Shown one piece after another: positions 4,870 through 60,599 of a stretch of DNA of 64,000 nt. The notes under the pieces were generated by a model that did no database searches, was not told the origin of the DNA, and worked only from the letters and a program-made list of their open reading frames with translations. Each line of letters starts with the position of its first letter. Position 1 is the stretch's first letter. The stretch is from Trichobilharzia szidati (taxonomy: Eukaryota > Platyhelminthes > Trematoda > Strigeidida > Schistosomatidae), in assembly GCA_944472155.2 (NCBI GenBank), contig OX235271.1, positions 120,471,329 to 120,535,328 on the forward strand, written 5' to 3'. The translations under genes were made by a program, and so were the position numbers.

Positions 4870-5110
4870 GCTTAATGCGTCAGTGGTTCAGAGGTAGAAC
4901 CATCACCAACCATGCATTTGGTCCGTGGTTAGATTCCTGGCGGACACACCTCTAATTCTCGCTAAGCTGGTAGTAAGGCTAGTAATGAGGCAAGGTTGAG
5001 TATGAGGCTAGCAACCCCACTGTGTAAAAACAAAACCACTGCTACCAAAACTTCAAAGCTCTAACTTAAAGCCCTATGCTCCGCTGGGAACTAAAATGAA
5101 TAAAAAGATT
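4870..5110 (+). repeat. tRNA-headed SINE (SINE1 copy 1)
   Basis: The head reads gcgtcagtggttcagaggt (box A-like) and gtggttagattcctggcgg (box B-like). A middle part containing 'tatgaggctagcaacccc' and a tail 'aaagccctatgctccgctgg' follow. The same three-part order recurs at 42495-42745 (-), 55912-56112 (+) and 58798-59031 (-). The tail matches the 3' end of the RTE LINE here, implying mobilisation in trans by that LINE. No target-site duplication was recognised for this copy. Confidence 0.7.
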
Positions 5111-41297: not shown

Positions 41298-41605
41298 AAT
41301 TGGTGGATGGTGACTAGTAGTGGAATCCAGGATGCGCATTTCTTTCAATTTTGGACTCGCCGGCTGGATGTACCTGCATTCCCCAATGAGTGATGATGTT
41401 CACACCGAGGCTTGAACCCAGTGCCCATAGTTTCAAACGCCTAAGCGTTATCCACCAGACCACTTGAGCCACGAGAGCCACCTCTTGTGCAATGGGTTAT
41501 ATTAATTACTCACTTCAATAATAGATTTTCCCGTCGATTGATTGGACCGAAGTGCTGCGTCTCATGTTGACATGACTGCTAGTCACCATCCACCAATTAA
41601 CTTCT
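41298..41605 (-). repeat. Sm-alpha-like SINE with hammerhead and terminal inverted repeat
   Basis: The sense strand is minus. A tRNA-like part contains ctcgtggctcaagtggtctg (box A) and cactgggttcaagcctcgg (box B), at 41420-41480. The hammerhead follows at 41322-41373. Both outer ends carry aattggtggatggtgactag in inverted orientation (41298-41318 and 41582-41602). Sm-alpha is a known schistosome SINE-like family combining a pol III promoter and a hammerhead. Confidence 0.7.
41322..41373 (-). ncRNA. Sm-alpha hammerhead ribozyme (core-mutated)
   Basis: On the minus strand: stem I atccag/ctggat gives 6 bp; the core ccggcga (41357-41363) has U4 to C and A6 to G relative to CUGANGA; stem II has decayed; GAAA lies at 41339-41342; stem III is the perfect 8-nt palindrome atgcgcat; the cleavage-site C follows, then ctggattcc. 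Fold and cleavage site are clearly Sm-alpha type, but two invariant bases are lost. Confidence 0.7.
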
Positions 41606-42494: not shown

Positions 42495-42745
42495 GTTCAA
42501 TCATTTTTTCCTTTACTTTCCCCAGTGGAACATAGGGCTTCATGCTAGTGGCTTGAAGATTCTGTAGCAGTGTTTATTTTACAGGATGGGGTTGCTAGCC
42601 TCATGCCCAACCCTTCCTCTTCACCAGCTTTTCTTAATTCTGACTTAGCGAGGTAAAGGAGTGCGACGGCTGGGGGTCGAACCCCGGACCATGAGCATGG
42701 TCGGCGAGCGTCCTAACCACTATGCCACCGATGCAGCCGTCTAAC
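42495..42745 (-). repeat. tRNA-headed SINE, best-preserved copy (SINE1 copy 2)
   Basis: On the minus strand the head reads ggctgcatcggtggcatagt with box A (tggcatagtggttagg, 42712-42727) and box B (ggggttcgacccc, 42673-42685). The middle contains gaggctagcaaccccatcc, and the tail gaagccctatgttccactgg joins an A-rich end. The head can fold like a tRNA. It is a SINE, not a tRNA gene, because no acceptor stem closes and the same head occurs fused to the LINE-like tail elsewhere. Confidence 0.8.
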
Positions 42746-44909: not shown

Positions 44910-45399
44910 TTGTGCTAAAAAAGGAAATGCACTTTAAACTCTTTACTTTCACTTATAATGGTAATGTTAGAGACATTAGAAGTTAAATCTCTCTATACTT
45001 TTCAAGAGTTCACACTTCAGATGTCATTCAAACTATCAGCCATTACATTAAAATCTAAATGTAATATGTGATAGCGAATATTTCAAAGTGTCTAAGGGAA
45101 ATAAAAAGTTTGTTTCTAATCTTCTTTACGTATGATTGAGTTTCAATCGCTACGCTATTGAAGACAAAACTCACTTCCCTCATTATTTAAAAATCTTTGA
45201 ACAGTATGTTGAAATAAAATTATATATGGACTAAAAGTGTACATATTGAGATGAAGTAAATAGGAATGATGACAGCTGTATACCAAATAATCCTATGTAA
45301 TGGTGAATGGTTCTTGTTATTGAGTATTAATTAGTCATTGTAAAGGGAATCCGTATATACCGTAGACTAACATCCTACAGTTCGAATATTGTATTATTA

Positions 45400-46716
45400 T
45401 TATTGTTCCCTTGGGTTCCTAGTGGAACATAGGGCTTCAACTGCACGCCTCCACTTGCTTCTGTCTACTGCTGTACTTTTCCTTTGCATCCATGTTAATC
45501 CATACTGTTTCAACTCCTCTTCACACGATCTCCTCCATGTCACCCTTGCACCGACGAACCACTCGCCGCTTCCCTTTCGGGTTCCACTCGAAGGCCTGAC
45601 GCGTGATGTCACCCAACGGCCTCCTCAGCGAGTGTCCAATCCATCTCCACTTTCTCCTGCATATTTGTTGGGCGATTGGTTCCTGTTTTGTTTGTTCCCA
45701 TAGCTTCTTGTTTGTGATTCTTTCCGGCCATTTAATCTTCAGTATAGAACGAAGACAGTTGTTGATAAAGGTCTGCAACCTGTTGAAAATATTCTTTGTG
45801 ACCCTTCAAGTTTCTGATCCGTAAAGCAAAATTGACTTGACGTTTGTATTGAAAATACGAATTTTGTTGTTGATGCTGAGTGACGAAGATTTCCAGATTG
45901 GTTTCAGGTTGATGAATGTGTTTCTCGCCTTCCCGATTCTCGATTTGACATCCTCGTCCGTTCCTCCTGTGGTTGAGACAATTCTCCCTAGATAAGTGAA
46001 AGAAGTAACCTCTTTCAAATCCTTCCCGTTGATGGTGATTGGCGCTGGATGTTGCTGCTGTTGCTGTTGTTGTTGGCTGGTTATTTTCATAACCTCCGTC
46101 TTGTCTATGTTCACCTGCAGTCCTGTCTTTGCTGCTTCTTCGACCAGTTTGTCGGTTTTCGCTTGTAAGTCTTCGATTTTGTGTGACATCAAACATAAAT
46201 CATCTGCGAAATCCAGGTCTTCTAGGTTCTTCGCGTCGGTCCAGGATATCCCTGTCTTCTCGTTTCCCACTGTCTGACGCATAATCCAGTCCACCACAAT
46301 TAGGAATATCATTGGTGATAGTAAGCACCCTTGTCTGACTCCTGTGTTTACTCCAAAAGCCTCGCTGAGTTTTCCGTTGTGAATCACTTGACATGTGCCA
46401 TTGTCGTACAGCTGTTGAATAAGGTTGATGAATATTTGGGGTACGCCGTAGTACTCGAGTATTTTCCAAATTACTTCGTGGTCAACGCTGTCGAAGGCCT
46501 TCTCAAAGTCTATAAAGTTGAGGTAGAGGTTTGATTGCCATTCCACGCTTTGTTCGATGATAATGCGTAGAGTTGCAATTCGGTCAGAACATGATTTGCC
46601 TTTCCTGAATCCAGCTTGTTCTGATTGGAGTTCTGTATCCAGTGCTTCCTTGATTCTCTCCAGGATGATGTGACTCAGGATTTTACTTGGCGTCGACAGG
46701 AGCATGATTCCTCTAT
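45400..46716 (-). pseudogene. RTE reverse transcriptase and C-terminal region (broken)
   Basis: The RT portion enters after the deletion, reading RGIMLLSTPSKILSHIILER, then QAGFRKGKSCSDRIATLR, LNFIDFEKAFDSVDHEVIW (motif A), VNTGVRQGCLLSPMIF (motif B) and LEDLDFADDLCLMSH (motif C, FADD intact). A Q-rich run (46051-46076) follows, then SFTYLGRIVSTTGGTDEDVK and KSILLYGSET. The frame stops at 45806-45808 where TGG (Trp) became TGA; the 25.6-kb copy keeps Trp. The C-terminal part continues as RRKWRWIGHSLRRPLGD and shifts frame near 45555 before VTWRRSCEEELKQYGL. Confidence 0.85.
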
Positions 46717-47922
46717 TAGCTTCCAAGTGTCCGTTGAGAGCCATTCCTTGTCTTGTTTCTTCTTTCTTCCTAAAACCGTTGAACACGTTTCGTTGAAAAT
46801 TACCTTCAGAGAGTTGCAATGGTCTTCCACGGATGATTCCTCAGTGGTGCCAAGTAGTGTTTCCTGCTTTGCTCTGACCGTTGCAGTGAAAATGTCCTGT
46901 GTGATTGTGTCCTTCAGTTTGTGAGTGTTGAACTTGCATTGTGGCCTATCCCCAGGTATCCTCGAGGCTTTCAGCTTCACCTTGAAAGTCCCTTGTACTA
47001 GATAGTGGTCTGAACCCACATCTGCTCCTCTCCTCGATCTTGTGTCTAGTAGGCTCCGTCTCCACTTCCTTGAGATTGAAATGAAGTCTATCTGGTTTTT
47101 GGTGTGTCCATCTGGTGAAATCCATGTTGCCTTGTGTATATCCCTGTGTTTGAACACACTGCCACCAATCACCAAATCATTGAAGGCGCAGAAGTCTGAG
47201 AAGAGTTCACCATTTTCTTTCATTTCACCGAGGGCCTCGCGACCCATGGTGAGTTCTCTTCCTGTATTGTCTCCTCCCAGTTTCGCATTCATATCACCCA
47301 TCAGGATTTTGATATCGCTCTTTGGGACGTTGTCCATTACTGTTTGTAGTTGACTGTAGAAATCCTCCTTCTTCTCATGTTCTGAGACGTTTGTAGGCGC
47401 GTAGCATTGAATGATTGTAACCTTCTTTCCTTTTGAGTTGAACCTGGCTGTCATTATCCTGGAGGAGATTGGTTCCCACTGCATGAGAGCTTTAGCCGCT
47501 GTTGGTGACATCATGATGGCTACTCCCTCGGTATGTTCGTGATCGTCCTCTGGGTGACCGGAGTAGATTATTGTCTCTCCAGTCGGTAGTTGGCACCTTC
47601 CACATCCGTTCCATCTGCTCTCACAGATTCCCAACACTTCTATTTTATATCTCCTCATTTCTGCGGCTACCTGAGCAGCCTTCCCAGTTTCGTACATTGT
47701 ACGAATATTCCACATCCCCATCCTTATTTTTGCTTTCATCGAAAGAAGGCACATCGGCTGACTGGCTTCCCGAAGGCTTTCACCAGCCTGCGTCATTTCA
47801 CTTCCCCGATTCCAGCGAAAAATAAGATCATTGTTTGTATTTTTAGAATTTTGAATATATTTGTGCGTTGAAGTTTTAGTAGCAATTTGGTTAAGTTTTG
47901 GGGGTGGAGTTGCTAGCACCAC
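46716..47922 (-). CDS. RTE APE-type endonuclease (ORF N-terminal part)
   Basis: An open frame of ~415 codons runs 47922 to 46675; the last ~14 codons lie past the deletion junction. It shows all visible APE motifs: GMWNIRTMYETGK (Asn), VLGICESRWNGCG (catalytic Glu), IIQCYAPTN, ILMGDMNAKLG (Asp/Asn), TWISPDGHTKNQIDFI and RRGADVGSDHYLV (SDH). The enzyme nicks target DNA to prime reverse transcription. The start is unclear: the first Met is in the 5' UTR-like part, and conserved sequence begins near PMCLLSMKAKIRMGMWN. The frame is uninterrupted, so this is the best-preserved catalytic domain in the window, although the whole protein is not intact. Confidence 0.8.
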
Positions 47923-48185
47923 GCTCCAACCCTCCCTCTTTATCCGGGCTTGGGACCGGCTAGAATACTAGTGACCTAGTAATCTAGGCGAGGTTGTCAG
48001 AGGTACAAGATTCAAGCAATTTCAATCTAGTATTCTCTTTCGTCTTATTTAGCGGCAGAGCTTCAAAAATTAATGAACTTGATTAGGCAAATTATGGAGA
48101 AATCAGCCAATATATTTGATGACAATAAATAGAGTTCAATTAATCCACATAACTTCTCATTGGAATTGTCAATGTGAGATTCAAT

Positions 48186-55299: not shown

Positions 55300-56420
55300 T
55301 TACATGGCCTTGTTTTGAATAGGAACCTCATGGTATCTTCAGAGGTTTTATCAGTGTTCACCAACCTACCACTAACTGAGACAGTGAAATTCGTGTACTG
55401 ACAGATACAGGAAAAGTAGACCGATATATGTACCAAAGCTTTTACTCTCATGGAACTTCCTTTAAAATGTACCATTGATAAATGTCTCATATTAAAAAAA
55501 TATCTATCAGAGACAGATAGATGGTGTCTATGGGTCCTCTATTAGATCAGATTTCGGTAAATTTTTTCCTCACTTTGCTGGAAAAGTTTTCACCAAAGAA
55601 AGCGTAAAAACACTGGATCCTTACTGTCGTTATACTCATTATTCTTGATCCAAAAAATGAAATGAACAGAACACTGAAAAATTTGATGATGCACATCCAC
55701 AGTCCATTTTCACTTTCGAAGCAGAACTTGATGGTAAATTACATATTCTTGGTGTTCAGCTGAACAGAAAAGTGGTTGGTACACTCAAGAACGGTGTTTG
55801 TAGAAAGACCACGTATCTAAGACAGTGTACACATTTGGTTGTTTCCGTACCGTTTCGCTAGAGGATCAAGAGGCACATGATAAAATGGAATTAATTTTAG
55901 TTAAAGAAACATGCACATGGTCTGAGGTTCGATCCGCGGCCTGCGCACACCTTTACCTCGCTAAGCCAGTAATAAAAAAGCTGATAAAGAGGAAAGGTTG
56001 GGCATGAGGCTAGCAACCCCATCCTGTAAAAATAAACACTGCTACAGAAACTCCATGTATCTAGCTTGAAGCCCTATGTCCCACTGGTGACGTGAAGGAA
56101 TAAAAAACAAAAAAAGAAACAGTTCTTCATGAGGAGCTGAATCTTTGAAGACGTAGCCAGTGAGTTTCATACCGAAGACTGTCTAGAGCCATGAGAAGGA
56201 ATTATACTGCTGCCAACATTTATTTATCATTTTCCAGTGGAGCGGTTGTCATTTCTAAGTTCAGAGATAAGTTACCTTAAACAAGTCGCTCGGAGGACAA
56301 ATACCGCTAGATGATATCCATAGTTTTCCTACAATTTCCTAAACTAGCACCACTGACAATTATAAAATGCTTGACTATTAGTCACTCTGGTGAAATAAGA
56401 TTGCATATTAAGAAACTATT
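55300..56420 (+). pseudogene. Penelope-like element interrupted by a SINE (PLE E)
   Basis: Before the SINE, the plus strand reads SVFTNLPLTETVKFVY (RT motif A region), LPLKCTIDKC, DGVYGSSIRS (motif B decayed), VKTLDPYCRYTHYS (catalytic box lost), KFDDAHPQSIFTFEAELDGK and RKTTYLRQCTHLVVSVPFR. After the SINE (56122 on) it continues with VLHEELN, then NYTAANIYLSFSSGAVVISK and FRDKLP, the linker before the GIY-YIG domain. The GIY-YIG core is not readable. The SINE splits the frame near the RT-linker boundary. Confidence 0.7.
55903..56121 (+). mobile_element. SINE1 copy 3 with 9-bp target-site duplication
   Basis: aaagaaaca lies at 55903-55911 and 56113-56121. The insert begins 5'-truncated within the tRNA head (catggtctgaggttcgatcc; box B 55926-55935), passes gaggctagcaaccccatcct and ends gccctatgtcccactggtga plus an A-rich tail. 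It interrupts PLE E. Confidence 0.75.
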
Positions 56421-58785: not shown

Positions 58786-58797
58786 TGAAAATGACGT
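58786..58797. repeat. 12-bp target-site duplication, left
   Basis: tgaaaatgacgt occurs here and again, identical, at 59142-59153, flanking the U6-SINE composite. Confidence 0.85.
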
Positions 58798-59031
58798 TTG
58801 TTTATTCCCTCACGTTACCAGTGGAACATACGCCTTCAAGCTAGATACTTGGAGTTTCTGTGGCAGTGTTTATTTTTACAGAATGAGGTTGCTAGCCTCA
58901 TGCCCAACCTTTCCTCTTCACCAGCTTTTTTATTTCTGGCTTAGTGAGGTAAAGGTGTGCGTTGGCCGGGGATCGAACCACGGACCATGTTCATGGTCAG
59001 CCAACATCCTAACCGCTATGCCATCGACGCA
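58798..59031 (-). mobile_element. SINE1 part of the U6-SINE chimera
   Basis: On the minus strand the tRNA head begins gcgtcgatggcatagcggtt (box A), box B is ccgtggttcgatcccc (58968-58983), the middle is gaggctagcaacctcattct, and the tail gaaggcgtatgttccactgg runs into the target-site duplication. Only the first ~4 bases of the SINE head are missing at the joint to U6. Confidence 0.85.
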
Positions 59032-59034
59032 AAC

Positions 59035-59141
59035 AAAAAAATATGCAACGCTTCACGATTTTGTGTCATTCTTGCACAGGAGCTATGCTAATCTTCTCTG
59101 TATTATTGCAATTTTAGTATATGTACCTCCGAAGCGAGTAC
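59035..59141 (-). ncRNA. U6 snRNA retrocopy (5' part of U6-SINE chimera)
   Basis: Read on the minus strand, gtactcgcttcgg is the U6 5' end, then catatactaaaattg, acagagaagattagcat (ACAGAGA box at 59095-59101 and the AGC triad), then cgtgaagcgttgcatatttt at the 3' end with a T-run. About 107 nt, the full U6 length. The U6 first base lies directly at the target-site duplication. Several changes from canonical U6 (for example in the segment after the AGC triad and the ggaggtac stem) mark it as a pseudogene. It is fused 5' of a SINE inside one duplication, so it arose as a chimeric cDNA. Confidence 0.9.
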
Positions 59142-59153
59142 TGAAAATGACGT
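59142..59153. repeat. 12-bp target-site duplication, right
   Basis: tgaaaatgacgt, identical to 58786-58797. Confidence 0.85.
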
Positions 59154-60599
59154 GGTACTACCCATTATTGAGAGTTCCTATATGTACTATCACCACCATG
59201 TGCAAGAAAGGCGCTGACACCTAAGTTACCGTGAAAGGTCCCAGTAAATGCCGTAATTCCATTAAGTGTATATCTGAATCTGAGATCGACTATGAATATC
59301 CTTTTCTGTAAGTTCTGTCGGAAAGCAGATCTAATAGTTCTCTTCGAAGATCAATGTACAGGAAGCCAACATGGGGCGATCATAGTTTGATTCCATTGAG
59401 AAGAAAGAGAAACTAGATTCACTTCTCATCCTTAAGATTTAGAATGACCTGCGCTAGCAACTGAATCGACGACGAACTAAAGAAATTCAGACAAGTTCCC
59501 ATTCAAAACTGATGCATTCCAAGTTTTATCGACAAAAATATGAAAGTAAAGCAGCGTCAGGAAGGAATCCACACAGCACAGAAGAAACTTTTGAACTTAG
59601 AGGTGATACTGAGGACAGAATTCTGAAAATTCACCTATCCAGATAACTTTAAAAAAATCATTCTTTTCTGCAGTCAGCAAGTGATCCGTGGATGTGTGAA
59701 CAACAAACTGATGATTTCAGCCACTTCAGTGTATGTTTGCAAATTCACTTGCTCCTTTAAAGCTAGTCATTTTGGCCGCGCAAAACGCACATTTTCCTAA
59801 CCTATCTCAGATTATTATCCTGCGTGATTTTTCCAGATGACAATGCAAGTCAGAGACTAGCTCAATTCTCAAGAACCTAGTGAACTCAGAACACACAGTT
59901 CCACCAGAAATATCTTTTAGAACTATTTACAAAGTGTGACTGAATAGTAAAATAGGTGTTACCTTTGGTCATTTGTGTATGGTAGAGGCGCTGGAGGTTT
60001 GTCAACAGAACCCTACACTCTGAATGCGACAAAGTTTTGTCAAGTCTCTTGTTTTACTATTGTCCTAGGCTTCTTTCTATTTGTTTGTAATTCACTATAA
60101 TCAGACTCACATATCTCTTATGTACATCTTACTTTTTTGTCACCTTTGCACTTTCAAGCGCACAGTAAAGCACCTTGTGGCTTATATAGCAGCAACCTCC
60201 ACCTTAACACATCTCAAACTCTTAATTCCATTGCATTGATAATCATTGAGTAGTTTCTTTTTATCTTTAGATACCACTTCTGAATAATTGCATCAATCAT
60301 TTCAAATACACCTATTTATCAATATCAGACTACTATTCGTATTTAGTGAATATAGATCCTCCTATACAGTGTATAAACATGAAGAAAATGAAAATTTTCT
60401 TCCCTGAGTTACCTTTTATATGTTCTCATTTATCGGTGAAGTGTATACTCTAAGTAACAGTGGTGAATACTGACTATTTATGGAGAAGTAGCAGTCATTT
60501 AGATTCAATCCAAATACTGTCTTAAGAACGAAAAGAGTATGCAGACCAAGAAAACTACCAGCAAATTCCTCCACGAGTTTTGGTCTATCTCTAGCTTCT

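Follow-up and report, generated by a model that had tools for sequence, protein, structure and literature searches.

A U6 snRNA-SINE composite inside a single target-site duplication in Trichobilharzia szidati, and its probable origin by template jumping

The composite locus and its neighbours

The stretch of DNA analysed here, hereafter the window, spans 64 kb (C1:120471329-120535328) of the 1.114-Gb Trichobilharzia szidati assembly and carries, on its minus strand, a U6-SINE composite at positions 58786..59153, both copies of a target-site duplication included. Read 5' to 3' along that strand, the composite consists of the 5' duplication copy (59142..59153, reading ACGTCATTTTCA), a full-length U6 snRNA retrocopy (59037..59141; Rfam RF00026, 91.4 bits, model positions 1-105 of 105), the joint TTGTTT, read from the sequence between the T5 of U6 and the SINE head (59031..59036), a full-length SINE (58798..59030; recognised by blastn to three other copies in the window and by a consensus from 25 loci) and the 3' duplication copy (58786..58797). 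U6 and the SINE are directly joined on the same strand with U6 upstream, as in a chimeric retrocopy, and a single duplication surrounds both. The Rfam match over the full model confirms the same-strand fusion proposed in a preliminary description of the locus. That description also had U6 as full length and fused directly to the SINE, and the whole model is indeed covered, but the copy is about 9% diverged from the U6 at another locus (L009), it contains a small deletion, and TTGTTT lies beyond the T5 of U6. This joint may consist of extra U of the RNA tail, of untemplated bases or of SINE leader.

The 12-bp duplication is an exact repeat, as had been noted from the start. The 12-mer tgaaaatgacgt occurs at two places in the 64-kb window, 58786-58797 and 59142-59153, and nowhere else in it; one copy abuts the first base of U6 (59141), again as first described, and the other directly follows the A-rich end of the SINE. 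The repeat scores 12, above every one of 650 cross-pairings of the flanks of other loci (maximum 10), and has p = 0.0007 when set against a further 1,482 null pairings. Because the U6 part is 8.6% and the SINE part 9.7% diverged, the two halves look equally old. Nesting of the composite in a Penelope element, which had been part of the original reading, is weakly supported: a degraded Penelope-like remnant (59354..59674, plus strand; tblastn, 26% identity, E 2e-8) lies 200 bp downstream, beside and perhaps around the composite, but the upstream side yields a 14-residue match at E 0.53 and a GSPLG-like motif seen by eye.

The SINE is laid out as a tRNA-like head (by eye), a middle resembling the 5'UTR of a LINE, a tail resembling a LINE 3' end, and a short A-rich end. 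The earlier label of a tRNA-headed SINE agrees with the box-like GGTTCGATCC and the tRNA-like layout of the head, both judged by eye, but ARAGORN (bacterial setting, standard code) recognised no tRNA in either the window or the SINE consensus. The tail is common to the SINE and the presumed partner LINE (85% identity over 39 bases, E 2e-7), and the middle matches the LINE 5'UTR at 74%, as measured on other copies of both elements; judging by these resemblances, the SINE may have been built from both ends of the LINE. By blastn, the SINE is present in the window in three further substantial copies, at 42504..42735 (minus strand), at 55910..56107 (plus strand, head missing) and at about 4877..5104 (plus strand), and no U6 was found in front of any of the three; weaker partial matches are present as well. 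The window also contains a type I hammerhead ribozyme at 41325-41369 (minus strand, 39.2 bits); hammerheads of this type have been described in Penelope-like elements and SINEs of schistosomes.

An RTE-type LINE copy without U6 occupies 45395..47995 on the minus strand, with an APE endonuclease ORF (46678-47967) and a reverse transcriptase ORF (45809-46840) that includes DUF6451. The domains found (PF03372, PF00078 and PF20049) comprise both the endonuclease and the reverse transcriptase, and the RTE-type assignment is provisional. Among LINE proteins, the highest score belongs to one of T. regenti (88%); a T. szidati LINE-like protein shows 61% identity. Compared with the first 700 bases of four chimeric LINEs, the window LINE is 95-97% identical, and its first base is the start of AACCTCGCC, the point at which U6 is fused elsewhere. 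The 5' end of the LINE resembles a twister-P1 ribozyme (47926..48000, minus strand; Rfam RF03160, 58.5 bits, E 6.3e-13, model positions 1-68 of 68), with a score below the gathering score of 67.2, and the consensus U/AA step, at 47996/47995, coincides with the LINE fusion point. The predicted fold of this stretch has -25.1 kcal/mol (z -2.0), a stability reached by 8 of 200 shuffled sequences.

U6 copies across the genome

An Rfam search of the genome gave at least 48 scored U6 matches (from 117,794 first-look candidates), all 48 of which were examined with their flanks. Together with the window copy they form an Rfam-selected sample of 49 loci, in 26 of which a SINE head starts -1 to 8 bases from the end of the U6 match. 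Because this search did not list the window copy or an array of U6 genes, we added a pattern search with the 19-base U6 3' end, allowing at most one mismatch, which gave 111 places, compared to 0 for the reversed-pattern control. There are 84 dispersed places in the pattern sample, of which 73 were examined; collapse of identical letters leaves 71 (72 with longer keys). Several places duplicate each other (L023/24, L027/43/50, L032/33/52, L035/51, L039/47 and L053/56; by eye also L025/46, L081/L117, L082/L120, L125/L136 and L132/L133), so that the counts given here are not counts of events.

Among the 71 dispersed places, U6 adjoins a SINE head in 32, a LINE 5' end in 12, the interior of a LINE in three, the interior of a SINE in two, a repeat family X in five and a repeat family Y in three; one place is an array-like unit and 13 are classed as other, with a SINE head visible by eye in two more places among the latter. 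U6 is full length in at least 21 of the 32 SINE-head places and at least four of the 12 LINE-end places, as measured by BLAST, which measured some copies short. The search for further U6-SINE fusions that had been suggested at the outset is thereby answered with 32 of 71 sampled dispersed places, and the joints vary among them. Most of the dispersed U6 copies sampled form one half of a chimera, and the annotation of snRNA genes has to take account of this. The remaining 27 of the 111 places are U6 units arranged in tandem at C3:95.41-95.52 Mb (C3:95410306-95515195; L099-L109), mostly about 2 kb apart; 10 of the 11 units read have an upstream block in common, and the array units are probably the genuine U6 genes.

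The fusions to other sequences are diverse. Family X meets U6 3' ends in L110, L114, L122 and L130, and also in L083; L110, L114 and L083 each have an inverted repeat with the end of U6 close to its centre, which looks like the outcome of snap-back or twin priming. The third repeat family, Y, is fused to U6 in L054/L073, L124 and L138, and the 5' fusion points of L054 and L138 almost coincide. Rfam detected no ribozyme at the joints of the family X and Y loci; it placed a hammerhead far downstream in L073 and a sub-threshold miRNA match in the inverted repeat of L110. In the duplicates L039/L047, U6 is fused to sequence resembling ribosomal spacer, which in L047 runs into 5.8S rRNA (Rfam, 106.5 bits). 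The chimeras in L021, L029 and L037 apparently have three parts: U6 is separated from the downstream SINE by some 150-300 bases that look by eye like tRNA or spacer or like nothing familiar. In L009/L077, L035 and L051, U6 is directly preceded on its 5' side by an inverted SINE; the U6 of L009 stands between two oppositely oriented SINE heads. In L055/L074 a 5'-truncated U6 is fused to what appears by eye to be a Penelope-like reverse transcriptase fragment.

A duplication at p<=0.01 was detected in 14 of 39 testable places, where about 0.4 would be expected, each with its own sequence; one of the 14 was discounted as a TA microsatellite. Clear duplications are mostly 9-13 bp. They are absent from 25 of the 39 places, for which age, filler bases or other repair may account. 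An exact-repeat search reaching up to 300 bases upstream of U6 found nothing for L009, L021, L023, L025, L026, L029, L030, L041, L049 and L053, distant and doubtful repeats for L011, L012, L034 and L037, and short offset repeats for L020 and L028. Chimeras that begin at the LINE 5' end carry duplications of their own, for example TCACATCTTCTA and AATTTGTATTC. Among the long loci, the duplications measure 12 bp in L066 and 11 bp in L064, both starting from the LINE 5' end, 12 bp in L068 and in L071, and 10 bp with a mismatch (by eye) in L063; none was found in the long loci L065 and L067.

The ages of the two halves are matched across loci as they are in the window. Among 25 of the 49 loci, those with a near-complete SINE, the divergence of U6 correlates with that of the SINE (Spearman 0.755), and the correlation is 0.666 (p 0.00098, n=21) after the duplicates L043, L046, L050 and L056 are dropped. 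Both at the window locus and over loci, these values point to the joint arrival of U6 and the SINE.

Origin of the fusions

The data support joint insertion of the two parts, complete element 5' ends at the joint, and recurrence. Insertion of U6 and the SINE in one event is well supported because a single duplication surrounds both, their ages are matched across loci and there are many parallel cases. We consider it likely that the composite was made by end-to-end template jumping within one retrotransposition event. The reverse transcriptase of a LINE, for which the RTE-type family in the window is the most likely source, would have started to copy SINE RNA at a nicked chromosomal site. On reaching the 5' end of that RNA it would have passed end to end to a U6 snRNA, entering at the oligo-U tail of the 3' end, and copied U6 up to its first base; attachment of the finished cDNA across the staggered break would then have produced the 12-bp duplication. 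We infer the identity of the acting LINE, the timing of the switch during reverse transcription and the landing on the U tail. Such a jump would cover the SINE, LINE-end and LINE-internal cases with a single step, and the element at the joint would be complete because the jump runs end to end. Several points count against this explanation: 25 of the 39 places tested lack a clear duplication, the pairing of the SINE with the LINE rests on a short common tail, and ligation of the RNAs before reverse transcription gives the same DNA. The template switching put forward in the preliminary description is the favoured route to one-event insertion, with RNA ligation as an alternative proposed in the literature; the LINE joints here fall at a predicted ribozyme cut.

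The T-runs at the joints are longer than those of the array genes. The latter end in T4 in nine and in T3 in two of the 11 units read, compared to T5-T7 in 24 of 29 SINE-head and nine of 10 LINE-end chimeras with the standard ATATTT end; the array-like unit L129 itself has T5. The excess fits copying of U6 RNA with added U, or addition of A by the enzyme at the jump. It could also come in part from leading T of the SINE itself, or from U6 genes outside the sample.

Ligation of RNA first, to which we assign a minor share of the probability, would join the cyclic-phosphate 3' end of U6 to an RNA with a 5'-hydroxyl, through RtcB or a ribozyme running backwards, and the product would be reverse transcribed whole; the 5'-hydroxyl of the LINE RNA would come from its predicted twister. 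Twister ribozymes cut between U and A of the U/AA step; the resulting ends are a 5'-hydroxyl and a cyclic phosphate on a terminal U, and the U6 RNA likewise ends in U with a cyclic phosphate. Because these ends match, ligation fits the LINE joints well. In accord with this reading, the LINE fusion point falls at the consensus U/AA step, whole-model twister matches are kept in all five LINE-5'-end chimeras scanned (48.4-60.2 bits), and 12 of 13 LINE joints consist of a bare T-run against the first bases of the LINE, with no other letter. The Rfam scan found no twister match in L068, in which the LINE part starts elsewhere. Furthermore, U6 is fused to 10 of the 1,775 exact LINE 5' ends in the genome compared to five of the 4,700 exact SINE heads (odds ratio 5.3, Fisher p 0.0017; p 0.010 with eight instead of 10 LINE ends), where the numerators are lower bounds from 72 places with one duplicate pair among the ten (L082/L120), and the SINE heads and LINE 5' ends differ in age and length; the higher frequency of fusion at LINE 5' ends is thus suggestive. 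Ligation by RtcB is also one of two routes proposed for U6/L1 chimeras in the available text of PMC13174262.

However, ligation fits the SINE poorly, and the window case is a SINE: an Rfam scan of the composite at E<=5 detected U6 only and no ribozyme, and many SINE joints contain varied extra bases. A Pol III transcript, moreover, should not bear a 5'-hydroxyl. For the LINE itself, fusions to internal positions exist (three of 71 places), and the twister matches of all six LINE copies, at 48-60 bits, lie under the gathering score. A related, equally tentative reading divides the labour: the predicted twister would make the 5' end of the LINE RNA, the freshly cut 5'-hydroxyl would capture U6, with RtcB or the reverse reaction of the ribozyme joining them and the U-ending 3' terminus of U6 resembling the leaving product of the ribozyme, and template jumping would add the SINE cases.

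It is quite improbable that a single early fusion gave rise to a U6-headed SINE family that has since been amplified as a unit. Differing duplications alone would not exclude such a spreading family, and we therefore tested descent. The joint T6-GTGCGTC does recur (for example in L009, L010, L014 and L018), and a (T)n-GTGC joint or a near form of it occurs in ten of 36 distinct SINE parts. However, among seven young copies with the commonest joint, the nearest SINE relative belongs to the group in two, compared to 2.2 expected, and random draws are at least as close in 29% of cases for the 20 young copies and in 9% for all 36. The other SINE joints differ in length and letters, many with varied extra bases. 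Because copies with the common joint are not nearest relatives and the joints vary, recurrent fusion fits better than a spreading family, and the common joint looks as if one and the same SINE leader had been fused repeatedly. In addition, the changes in the U6 parts are mostly private (by eye), and U6 is fused also to the LINE, to rRNA spacer and to other sequences. SINE families headed by snRNA have reportedly been described (Kojima, in 2015); with U6 on five of the 4,700 exact heads among the places examined, and with no clustering of the copies that have the common joint, the present SINE does not appear to be of that type.

Two further explanations can be dealt with briefly. Both parts are repeats, and two insertions can come to lie side by side, but the chance abutment of two independent insertions, with the SINE landing in or beside an older U6 copy, is very improbable given one duplication around both parts, the common strand, the fusion of many loci at complete 5' ends and the matched ages. 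That this U6 is a functional gene followed by a SINE, as its full length and T-run might suggest, is hardly credible at about 9% divergence and with the upstream block of the array units missing here (by eye).

Comparison with known systems

A full-text literature search for U6 snRNA pseudogenes with SINEs in flatworms found no description, and the available parts of two flatworm papers (PMC2770079 and PMC4465651) show no chimera. The novelty attributed to the composite at the outset was nevertheless too strong, as the fusion of U6 to a SINE or to an RTE element is as such already known. According to the available text of Doucet et al. 2015 (PMC4476161), U6-SINE chimeras occur in platypus (Mon-1) and Anolis (AnolisSINE2), an opossum U6-RTESINE1 chimera lacks a clear duplication, and human U6/Alu chimeras are rare; U6-LINE chimeras involve L2 in platypus, L1, L2 and RTEX-2 in Anolis, and RTE_Mdo in opossum. 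The platypus and Anolis chimeras are attributed to template switching in that paper. What appears new, as far as we searched, is that the host is a schistosome, how often the 5' ends are complete, and that the LINE joint lies at a predicted twister cut.

As in platypus, Anolis and opossum, U6 in T. szidati is fused to SINEs and LINEs alike, and RTE-type elements are among the partners. The T. szidati chimeras differ from the others in completeness and in their duplications: 5' truncation affects nearly all of the platypus U6-L2 parts, most of which have duplications of 1-9 bp, and the opossum RTE and RTESINE1 cases have no obvious duplication (available text of PMC4476161), whereas here at least 21 of the 32 SINE-head places have a full-length U6 and most of the clear duplications measure 9-13 bp. 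As in the mammalian U6/L1 and U6/Alu chimeras, U6 is on the 5' side, in sense orientation and with duplications (Buzdin 2003 and Garcia-Perez 2007, via PMC4476161; PMC13174262, available text). Fusion to full-length or truncated L1 is mentioned in the available text of PMC13174262, where the L1 part is more often 5'-truncated, unlike the LINE parts described here.

The WEIRD, Mg-SINE and MGL chimeras of Magnaporthe are also comparable, being bipartite or tripartite fusions that include a SINE and have a single duplication. In the available text of PMC2104539, however, 5'-truncated 3' parts are a common feature and the joints lie inside the templates at GCC*A/U sites, whereas here they lie largely at element 5' ends.

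For the capture of U6, template jumping and RNA ligation are both given, and the choice is left unsettled, in the available text of PMC13174262; the word 'ribozyme' is absent from the text of that U6/L1 catalogue. The present genome offers two natural series at 5' ends, SINE RNAs with no recognised ribozyme and LINE RNAs with a predicted one, and comparison of the two could separate jumping from ligation. The LINE series points to a possible connection of self-cleaving ribozymes, predicted here, with the capture of host RNA. Twister variants occur in non-LTR retrotransposons of Schistosoma mansoni (Liu et al. 2021, as cited in the available text of PMC11620745), and the T. szidati LINE, with its predicted twister, resembles these elements as another schistosome non-LTR element of this kind.
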